From Treponema sp. (lineage in GTDB: Bacteria > Spirochaetota > Spirochaetia > Treponematales > Treponemataceae), in assembly GCA_016283615.1 (NCBI GenBank), contig JAEENG010000128.1, forward strand, positions 1 to 38,526: a stretch of 38,526 nt of DNA, read 5' to 3'. Below the pieces are notes generated by a model. The model was not told where the DNA came from, searched no databases, and saw only the letters and a program-made list of their open reading frames with translations. Below, piece after piece: positions 32,540 through 36,262 of this stretch (within the stretch, counting starts at the first letter, position 1; every line of letters starts with the position of its first letter). A program made the translations under genes and the position numbers.

Positions 32540-32797
32540 TTAATCATAGACTTCGCTTCTGTGTCCTATGCGAAGAAGTGTTATTATCAGCTTGTCATCT
32601 ATTATCTCACATATAAGACGCCAGTCTCCGACGCGGTAACGCCACAAGCCGGCAAGATTACTCGAAAGTCCTTTTCCTCGTGAACGGGGATCTTCCAGCT
32701 CTTCAAGTTCATGTACATATTTTACAATCTGCCTGCGAACACTTCCGTCAACTTTTTTTAAGGTTTTTAATGCTGTTTCTGAAAATATTACTTTCAT
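32540..32797 (-). CDS. RelE/ParE-family toxin
   Basis: MKVIFSETALKTLKKVDGSVRRQIVKYVHELE...LAGLWRYRVGDWRLICEIIDDKLIITLLRIGHRSEVYD: canonical RelE. Confidence 0.92.
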   Translation of the reverse strand: MKVIFSETALKTLKKVDGSVRRQIVKYVHELEELEDPRSRGKGLSSNLAGLWRYRVGDWRLICEIIDDKLIITLLRIGHRSEVYD

Positions 32798-33027
32798 AAT
32801 CCAAGTTCAGATTCTACTTCGGCAAGTGTGTATGTTTTTTCTTTTCCGCTTCTGATATTCTTAACAACTTCTTCTGCCAGAAAAATATCTTCAAGATCAT
32901 CAAGGTATTCATCAAGAAGATAATTATAATAAAATGATGCAGGACGTTTGGTCATTTTTGCCAGGCGTTCTACTCTGATTTTAGTCTGAGGATTCGATCT
33001 GAAATTAATTACTGCTGAATTAGTCAT
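32794..33027 (-). CDS. RelB/DUF6290-like antitoxin
   Basis: Ribbon-helix-helix-like AVINFRSNPQTKIRVERLAKMTKRPASFYYNYLLDEYLDDLEDIFLAEEV; 4-nt overlap with the toxin. Confidence 0.85.
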   Translation of the reverse strand: MTNSAVINFRSNPQTKIRVERLAKMTKRPASFYYNYLLDEYLDDLEDIFLAEEVVKNIRSGKEKTYTLAEVESELGL

Positions 33028-33614: not shown

Positions 33615-34292
33615 TCAGTTTTCCCAGACAAAGAGGTCGGCGCAGTTTCTCTCCCCGCCGGAAACCTCGATTGCCTGCCCTGTACAAAATGTGTTTGTGA
33701 CCGTCAGAAAATAGCACCACTCAGCGGCCTCATCAACTGAGCACCATTTTTTGAGCGGAGTCACGTCCATGATTTTGTTCCAGAGCTTAGGGTTTTTCAT
33801 TACCGGTTCGTTGAGTTCAGTACTTACACCGCCAAAACAGATTGCATTGGAAGTCGCCTTAAAATCATTTGCAAGTCGAATCGCAACGTTTTTCATAAAG
33901 CCAATCAGTCCTGCCTTACTTGCAGCGTAAGAAGCAAATTCATTTCCGGTCAGGGCAGACGCCGACGAATTGAACAGAACTGATTTTATACTTGGATTAA
34001 ATGCATACTTGTTGGTCACATTCATGCTTCCGATTAAGTTGACATTTATGTCCTTTAAGCACACTTCATTTGTTGCGCTCTGAACGCCCGCGTTATTGAT
34101 GATTATTTCCATTGCAGGCAGCTCAGGAAGTGCTTTTGCGTCAGAAATGTCGCATTCAATATGAGTATAATCCGGATGTTCAATCGATGCCTTTTGAATA
34201 TCAAGGCCCCAGACTTTATGCTTTTGATTCAGGAATTTAAGGGCACAGGCTTTTCCGATGCCACTGGATGTTCCGGTAATTAAAATGTTCAT
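33615..34292 (-). CDS. SDR-family oxidoreductase
   Basis: MNILITGTSSGIGKACALKFL, NNAGVQ, YAASKAGLIGF, FCTGQAIEVSGG. Confidence 0.9.
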   Translation of the reverse strand: MNILITGTSSGIGKACALKFLNQKHKVWGLDIQKASIEHPDYTHIECDISDAKALPELPAMEIIINNAGVQSATNEVCLKDINVNLIGSMNVTNKYAFNPSIKSVLFNSSASALTGNEFASYAASKAGLIGFMKNVAIRLANDFKATSNAICFGGVSTELNEPVMKNPKLWNKIMDVTPLKKWCSVDEAAEWCYFLTVTNTFCTGQAIEVSGGERNCADLFVWEN

Positions 34293-35092
34293 TCGCGCCC
34301 TGTTGAATTCAATTTGTCCTGATAGTCAAAATATGCACTTCCGACATTTTCTTTTTCCCACTGGCAGACTACCCTGTAGCCAAAACCTGAGAAGAAGACT
34401 TCGCCCAAAAGTTCGCAGACGGCTCCGATACAGGAGCACACCAGAACCTGGGTCCATGTCCAGCCAAAGAAAAACTTTGAAACTACGGTTGCAAAAATCA
34501 TGTTGTCCACAAACTGCGCTATGATTGTAGAAACGTATGAGCGCAGGGCAAACACACCAAAATTATTTTTCTTAAAGATTGAACCGATGGCGCTGTTCAA
34601 AACGGCATTTACGACAGAAGACATGATAAACGCAAGTGCTGAGCCTAGAACGACGTACCACGCTCCGCCAAAGGTTGAATTGAGAGCATCGTTAACGCTC
34701 TGATTTTCGGTTGTGTAGAATTCACCCCAGTTGCCCGGAGCCTTTGTCAAAGCCCAGAACGAAAGGCAGACGCAGAGGTTGATGAAAAGTGCGAGAAGAG
34801 AAATCTTAACGCTTGCCTTTGGTCCCCAGCGCTTACAAATTACGTCCATGCACAAAAACATAATCCAGCTGAATGCAAAGCCGCAGTCGAGCGCAACAAA
34901 TTTGTAGTTGATGAGTTCTTTGTTTGCCATAAGATTTGCGCAAACAACCGACAGTACAAAAACTGTAACTGTTAAAGAAGGAATACTTCTAAGAAGGATT
35001 TTGTAATCAGCAAAGAATCCGCTGATTGTGGAAGAAATTTTTGAAAGGCTTTTTGCCATAGATAAAATGGTGATCCGTGTCACCGCCTCCAT
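34289..35092 (-). CDS. VUT-family (YhhQ-like, COG1738) queuosine-precursor transporter
   Basis: Multi-TM; VVCANLMANKELI, ALDCGFAFSWIMFLCMDVICKRWGPKASVKIS; 4-nt overlap with the SDR gene. Confidence 0.8.
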   Translation of the reverse strand: MEAVTRITILSMAKSLSKISSTISGFFADYKILLRSIPSLTVTVFVLSVVCANLMANKELINYKFVALDCGFAFSWIMFLCMDVICKRWGPKASVKISLLALFINLCVCLSFWALTKAPGNWGEFYTTENQSVNDALNSTFGGAWYVVLGSALAFIMSSVVNAVLNSAIGSIFKKNNFGVFALRSYVSTIIAQFVDNMIFATVVSKFFFGWTWTQVLVCSCIGAVCELLGEVFFSGFGYRVVCQWEKENVGSAYFDYQDKLNSTGRE

Positions 35093-35145: not shown

Positions 35146-35230
35146 AGTGTCAGGTTAAAACTTTTTACCACTTTTGCCAAGTATTTAATACTTTCACAAG
35201 TGTTTGCAAAACGTAGGTATATGTCAAGTT

Positions 35231-35375
35231 TTGAGTTTTTCACATATCAGTAAGTCCAAGTCTGCCGTAAGCGAGGTTACGGCACAAACTCGCCTGAGCT
35301 TTGCTCACCGCGAGGTTTGTTGACGTGCTCTCGCTGAGAGGCAGATTTGATTTATAGATAATTTGAAAAACTCAA
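35231..35375. repeat. Cloverleaf-like intergenic element: terminal inverted repeats enclosing three hairpins
   Basis: TTGAGTTTTTC/GAAAAACTCAA (11/11); inner CAAGTCTGCC/GGCAGATTTG (9/10); hairpins GCCGTAA/TTACGGC, ACAAACTCGC..TGAGCtttGCTCA..GCGAGGTTTGT, CTCTC/GAGAG. Confidence 0.7.
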
Positions 35376-35386
35376 CATTTAAGCAT

Positions 35387-36262
35387 TTATTTTACGGTGT
35401 TTTCCGCAGCTTCCAATGTGTTATACATCAGCATTGCGATTGTCATTGGGCCGACGCCGCCCGGAACCGGTGTGATGAACGAAGCTTTTTCCTTGATTTC
35501 GTCAAAGTCACAGTCGCCGATCAAGCGGAAGCCGCTCTTTTTGCTTGCGTCAGGAATGCGGTTTACGCCGACATCGATTACAACAGCGCCGTCTTTTACC
35601 ATGTCAGCAGTTACTGTGTGTGGATGACCGCTGGCTGCAACGATGATGTCTGCCTGGCGTGTGATTTCTGCCATGTTTTTTGTTCCTGTGTGGCAGATAG
35701 TTACAGTACAGTTTGTTTCTTTGCGGCAGAGGAGGATTGAAACAGGTTTTCCGACAATGTTTGAACGGCCGATTACAACGGCGTGCTTTCCGCTTGTTTC
35801 AACGCCCATGCGTTCAAGGAGAACAATGATTCCGTGCGGTGTACACGGAAGGAATGCTTTTTTGCCGATTACGAGGTTTCCGACATTTACCGGGTGGAAT
35901 CCGTCAACGTCCTTGTCCGGGCTGATTGCCATAATGACCTTGTCTTCGTTGATGTGCTTTGGAAGAGGAAGCTGAACAAGAATTCCGTGAACGCTGTCGT
36001 CCTTATTCAATTTGTCGATTAAAGCGAGCAGTTCTTCTTCTGAAGTTGATTCCGGAAGTTCTTCGCTGCGGTCAAGCATGCCGGCTTCGGCAAGGGCCTT
36101 TCTTTTTCCTGTAACATAAGAAACACTGGCAGGATTCTGGCCTACAAGAATTACAGCAAGACAAGGTGTAATTCCCTTTGCTTTTAATGCAGCTACTTTT
36201 TCTGCAACACCTGCGCGAACATCAAGCGCAATCTGCTTTCCGTCAATAATTTGAGCACTCAT
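35387..36262 (-). CDS. folD: Bifunctional methylenetetrahydrofolate dehydrogenase/cyclohydrolase
   Basis: [27 protein letters not shown]...[12 protein letters not shown]...[13 protein letters not shown]...[17 protein letters not shown]...[14 protein letters not shown]. Confidence 0.95.

Follow-up and report, generated by a model that had tools for sequence, protein, structure and literature searches.

A 145-bp stretch at positions 35231–35375 of the window, by which we mean the whole 38,526-nucleotide stretch of Treponema sp. DNA that was analysed, is one copy of a repeat family that is restricted to the genus and carries no protein gene. The family is probably a non-autonomous, MITE-like transposon family whose RNA or single-strand fold is under selection, with the rod made by this fold acting at the 3' ends of genes. 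It has the marks of a MITE: dispersed non-coding copies, terminal inverted repeats (TIRs, degenerate in the window copy), a target duplication (in one sub-clade only) and empty sites in relatives. The element lies between a VUT transporter gene and folD, as an earlier note on this DNA had placed it and as domain matches bear out (PF02592; PF02882/PF00763). Its parts and neighbours are listed below; the plus strand of the element was set by the orientation of the conserved tip.

34289–35092, minus strand: VUT vitamin-uptake transporter gene (PF02592)
35223–35384, plus strand: element shared with the copies in the same genome, whose consensus matches 35223–35380 at 92%
35231–35241, plus strand: left TIR, TTGAGTTTTTC, a degenerate form of the family TIR TCGAGTTTT
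35258–35266, plus strand: 5' arm of stem P1, paired with 35340–35348; both-side changes at 9/9 pairs among copies
35267–35269, plus strand: asymmetric internal loop, 5' side, GTA (GGA or GTA in the family)
35270–35276, plus strand: 5' arm of stem P2, paired with 35329–35335
35276–35278, plus strand: symmetric inner loop, GTT, facing GCT at 35327–35329 in the window copy
35278–35281, plus strand: 5' arm of stem P3, paired with 35324–35327
35285–35319, plus strand: cap, made of stem P4 and the tip hairpin TGAGC-TTT-GCTCA (35295–35307)
35329–35335, plus strand: 3' arm of P2
35336–35339, plus strand: asymmetric internal loop, 3' side, GAGA (mostly GRRA in the family)
35340–35348, plus strand: 3' arm of P1
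35365–35375, minus strand: right TIR, GAAAAACTCAA
35367–35384, minus strand: TIR-like 18-mer with 2 mismatches
35387–36262, minus strand: folD (PF02882/PF00763); the element begins 11 bp past its stop codon

Elsewhere in the window, at 32540–33027 on the minus strand, a gene for a ParE-type toxin (PF05016) is overlapped by a 77-aa ORF, which has no Pfam match and is presumably the antitoxin.

The earlier note had described this stretch as a cloverleaf, with perfect 11-bp terminal inverted repeats enclosing a second stem and three successive hairpins. The repeats are found exactly at 35231–35241 and 35365–35375, and the second stem is real (P1, 35258–35266 paired with 35340–35348); the cloverleaf does not hold: a row of three hairpins is neither the best nor the conserved fold, and of the three only the middle one survives. 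The minimum-energy structure of 35231–35375 is instead a single bulged rod at −69.0 kcal/mol, compared to −57.0 kcal/mol when the first side hairpin is forced; this hairpin also keeps only 83% of its pairs, mostly through one-sided changes. The folding energy of this stretch of the window (−70.2 kcal/mol) is far below that of shuffled sequences (−35.5 ± 3.6 kcal/mol; z = −9.7), and none of 200 shuffles did as well. Rfam, tRNA included, gave no family above the gathering threshold, and a search at a loose threshold likewise assigned it to no family; the earlier remark that no tRNA signature is present therefore stands.

The element is far from unique. BLAST against its own genome returns six complete copies (about 86% identity) along with a half copy that is truncated at the tip, and a covariance model added a seventh copy on contig 152. 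Across the genus, 9 of 146 genomes contain the tip motif and none contains its reversed control, and a covariance model built from 47 cores has matches in 79 of 200 genomes, the weakest of which are only putative. Many of the weaker matches (30–60 bits) are relatives that carry other caps, and some low-scoring ones are the same hairpin read on the reverse strand. When 298 genomes of the phylum were scanned, the only match beyond the genus was a weak one, in a sister genus, that retains the GTA/GAGA loop. The window copy has no match in collections of plasmids and phages. An origin from plasmids or phages was rejected, with a complete unit from the sub-clade described below unmatched in both collections and another core unmatched in plasmids.

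Counting from its base, the rod consists of P1, an asymmetric GKA/GRRA internal loop, P2, a GTT/GTT loop (G.U, U.U, U.G), P3 and the cap. The window copy forms every one of the 34 pairs in the family model. In most copies GTT faces GTT in the symmetric loop, with a middle mismatch between G.U and U.G, and the outer G.T and T.G pairs are invariant in 86 of 86 distinct copies. In other sub-families, unrelated caps stand in place of the window-type cap; the 5' side of the asymmetric loop is kept in these sub-families, which retain mainly the two loops and their setting. This indicates that the conserved unit is the base module and not the cap.

Pairing in the rod has been maintained through extensive sequence change. 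Among 47 aligned cores, 98.4% of pair cells hold standard pairs (85.5% when shuffled), 21 of the 34 pairs have changed on both sides (12.2 when shuffled), and the covariation score is 0.387 compared to 0.135 for shuffled alignments; when the partners are slid by 1–3 columns, pairing falls to about 40%. Because these shuffle and slide controls leave sequence relatedness in, we regard a test at orthologous sites as stronger. About two dozen groups of copies occupy one and the same intergenic site in at least two species, and from these sites we took 20 aligned pairs of copies, three of which come from one group of three. These pairs differ at 65 stem pairs, of which 47 have changed on both sides and remain paired, 9 have changed on one side and remain paired, and 9 are broken. 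Given its several copies in the home genome and the full compensation of 47 of the 65 altered pairs, the element is clearly not a single-copy sequence devoid of compensatory change, and the earlier proposal of a structured, RNA-like fold is supported by these changes.

One strand is favoured: G.T outnumbers A.C at the variable pairs (30 versus 11), and the plus strand is the more stable in 97% of copies, by a mean of 5.3 kcal/mol. The core is in the opposite orientation in sister species, or belongs to another sub-type, at three shared sites; recurrent replacement or inversion therefore occurs.

The mismatched positions covary as well. In columns that are unpaired in the model, the pairs with the highest mutual information are facing positions, and the mismatches that covary are C.U with U.C, A.G with G.A or A-U, and G.G with U.A, the last linking a base of the asymmetric loop to the base that faces it. 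Strand inversion as the cause of these swaps was rejected, as it predicts A.G for C.U and this exchange was not seen.

These observations bear on whether the rod might be functionless and kept by replication template-switching alone, that is, by the self-correction of a hairpin. Where the arms of a long palindrome correct each other, the outcome could look like compensatory change, though conserved mismatches should then be erased. With the A/T tracts set aside, a copy's left arm is complementary to its right arm (score 6.4); arms taken from different copies score little better than shuffled sequence (−0.1 and −0.7), and this agreement within but not between copies is what such a process would yield; the matching stretch spans roughly 25–70 nt in the strongest cases. 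At one locus (L068), moreover, empty sites lack the right arm, which looks like the end of the neighbouring gene on the left in inverted form. Against this explanation, the GTT/GTT and GKA/GRRA loops stay mismatched while adjacent pairs change in concert, the mismatches covary with each other, and there is a strand bias of G.T over A.C. We consider it quite improbable that template-switching accounts for the rod by itself. The copy-specific arms would nevertheless be explained by such correction between arms, or by template switching, in the course of replication; most simply, one arm of a copy would serve to correct the other, or would be duplicated as an inverted copy, as the DNA is replicated. 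Part of the arm-to-arm match is a drifting TIR.

The clearest signs of mobility come from one sub-clade (genomes G144, G167 and G132), in which there are complete units of 234–277 bp (234–237 and 273–277) and one of 559 bp. These complete units end in the TIR GGTYRAATGTCGAGTTTT; this motif, with up to 2 mismatches, has 45 matches in one complete genome and 0 in the reversed control. At 8 of 19 sites the unit is flanked by an exact target duplication of 5 bp, compared to 1.1 with reshuffled flanks (p = 5e-5; not all of the 19 are independent, as a few are orthologous sites in different genomes), and we conclude from this that the sub-clade units transpose. Duplications of 3, 4, 6, 7 or 8 bp show no notable excess. 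The duplicated sequences are TA-rich (TATTA, TACTA, TATAT, TAATA, TTATA and similar). In the window's own clade, no convincing target duplication was found at the copies; the flanking duplications that the earlier note proposed to look for were demonstrated in the sub-clade only, and the window's clade is represented by older, degenerate copies.

Empty sites point the same way. At seven loci (L068, L071, L072, L075, L082, L087 and L098), sister genomes have either nothing or a simple terminator in place of the element, and near-identical units are dispersed at unrelated loci. No empty site was obtained for the window copy itself because gene order beside folD is not conserved. The multiple copies, the empty sites in relatives and the duplications in the sub-clade uphold the earlier idea of a dispersed MITE/REP-like element. 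We also rejected the idea that P1 is a terminator native to the host whose loop received the element: no match to P1 is seen in the simple terminators of empty sites.

The rod's location behind genes, its maintenance in place across species and the T-tracts on both sides in relatives would also be expected of a host family of structured RNAs or terminators that had spread by ordinary duplication and recombination rather than by transposition, in which case the TIRs would be a mere outer stem. Such a family does not fit the defined ends and 5-bp target duplications seen in one sub-clade, the empty sites, or the near-identical units at unrelated loci, and we judge it unlikely.

The same duplications speak to the type of transposition. 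The element could be a single-strand hairpin of the REP/REPIN or IS200-like kind, with the plus-strand rod as the substrate of a Y1 transposase, and one strand does give a better, conserved fold, with conserved unpaired motifs and 3' locations like those of REPs. The REP/IS200 (Y1) mechanism, however, makes no 5-bp direct target duplication, and such duplications are present here; the TIRs are long, and the rod measures 95–120 nt with exchangeable caps, as opposed to the 20–30 nt of a REP hairpin. We find this origin very doubtful. Scarcely credible is a site for site-specific recombination by a tyrosine recombinase, such as an integron attC: attC sites are alike in having an imperfect hairpin with a conserved base and a variable cap, but the outer ends of our element lack the RYYYAAC/GTTRRRY pair (sequences inspected by eye), and single copies are dispersed between ordinary genes, with 5-bp target duplications and no cassette arrays. 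The earlier suggestions of a dispersed element and a structured fold are supported; a tyrosine recombinase or REP-type transposase site is not, since the duplications oppose REP/IS200-type movement and the attC layout is absent.

Movement by the Tn3 family would leave a 5-bp, TA-rich target duplication. A Tn3-derived miniature element (TIME) was rejected, however: the Tn3 transposase (PF01526) was found in 0 of 26 genomes, and the ends do not start with GGGG. TIMEs are similar in being miniature and non-autonomous (PMC4133298). Derivation from the IS1202 family, represented in T. denticola by ISTde1, was likewise set aside, as the target duplication of ISTde1 is 17 bp (PMC10132070) and that of the Treponema element 5 bp. 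A search of four genomes with TIR pairs and end sequences recovered only units of about 230–560 bp and no autonomous partner, and the ORFs of three gene stretches that we checked comprised housekeeping genes, with no transposase.

Copies are found on the 3' side of genes: 40 lie between convergent genes, 42 between tandem genes and only 5 between divergent genes (convergent versus divergent, p = 4e-8), and the median distance from stop codon to core is 35 bp. In tandem settings there is no preferred orientation (17 same, 25 opposite). Of 83 copies from clades other than the window's, 66 carry a run of five or more T on each of the two strands (control windows, 10.7% each), and these 66 show the hallmark of an intrinsic terminator, a GC stem followed by a T-tract. 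Such A/T tracts on both sides of the stem look like the layout of a bidirectional intrinsic terminator, with a predicted stop signal. In the window's clade T-tracts are mostly absent, and the window copy lacks one; it would therefore be at most a 3'-end stabilising or processing hairpin, and its position suggests a putative role of this kind.

Under the MITE-like reading, a transposase supplied in trans would recognise the ends of the element and move the unit, and copies would be retained only where they are harmless or useful, which is to say behind genes. The rod would act in nascent RNA as a 3'-end structure, and in most relatives, where it is flanked by an A-tract and a T-tract, it might work as a two-way intrinsic terminator. 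More tentatively, the base of the rod (P1, the GKA/GRRA loop, P2 and the GTT/GTT loop) could possibly be an RNA or single-strand DNA module that is recognised by a protein and fitted with exchangeable caps, which would make this a mobile family of structured terminators that need the fold, not the sequence, both for spread and for their job at gene ends.

The open-access papers that were searched contain no account of such an element for Treponema. By likeness, ERIC is close: this intergenic repeat unit is a 127-bp enterobacterial palindrome, and by description both are near palindromes of about 130–150 bp with a conserved central hairpin, intergenic and 3' of genes. In contrast, ERIC duplicates TA where our element duplicates 5 bp, and most Treponema relatives have T-tracts on both sides. 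Correia elements, like ERIC, are alike in size, palindromy and location. We know of no sequence that Correia/NEMIS, RUP/BOX or ERIC has in common with the Treponema element. Bidirectional intrinsic terminators share the A-run before the stem, the T-run after it and the location between convergent genes; here, however, a structured interior of about 95 nt is conserved between loci and species, and the window's clade mostly lacks T-tracts. Prokaryotic MITEs, as reviewed in PMC10969869 and PMC2229807, are also small, intergenic and multicopy, with TIRs, a target duplication and no protein gene; the Treponema element differs from them in its conserved non-canonical internal loops and exchangeable caps. 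Correia/NEMIS and the pneumococcal RUP/BOX (see PMC3049150) are mobile hairpins that become part of transcripts and are able to change RNA ends; they have other ends, another target duplication and different hosts.

The distinctive trait of the family is a strongly selected non-canonical rod with exchangeable caps. For the majority of bacterial miniature elements, only the sequence is known. The present one is mobile and sits where transcripts are expected to end, and at individual loci its fold has been preserved across species, down to single pairs and mismatches, even as the cap is exchanged. The family offers a tractable case for studying how hairpins of parasitic origin turn into host transcription terminators, as well as the concerted evolution of long palindromes, and the element is also a repeat marker for an under-studied bacterial group.

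Several copies have features of their own. The 559-bp unit (L264; G144 contig 1, 1402950–1403830) shares its ends with the 234/275-bp elements; its fold, at −224 kcal/mol, has several additional hairpins, and it may be a larger, more complete member of the family. At one orthologous site (L276 in G167, L278 in G132), the 276-bp and 237-bp forms differ by the exchange of an internal hairpin module of about 40 bp and have identical target duplications. Six cores (L064, L070, L077, L104, L076 and L110) contain second-level short hairpins of the type GAGCACnnnCGTTnTCGTGCTC, and another insert, CTTAGCACTATTGTGCG, is common to L101 and L104. A site that holds the family element in G108 (L066) is occupied in G149 (L244) and G179 (L245) by a different large hairpin element (GGCGCGAGGGAGTAAAACGGCTTACGGGGACATTCG...). 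Finally, the motif TTCTATG recurs about 60 bp upstream of the core in many copies from G075, G108, G114 and G149 and in some of them is fused straight to one truncated half of the element; this motif may be where another repeat ends, or the genuine left end.
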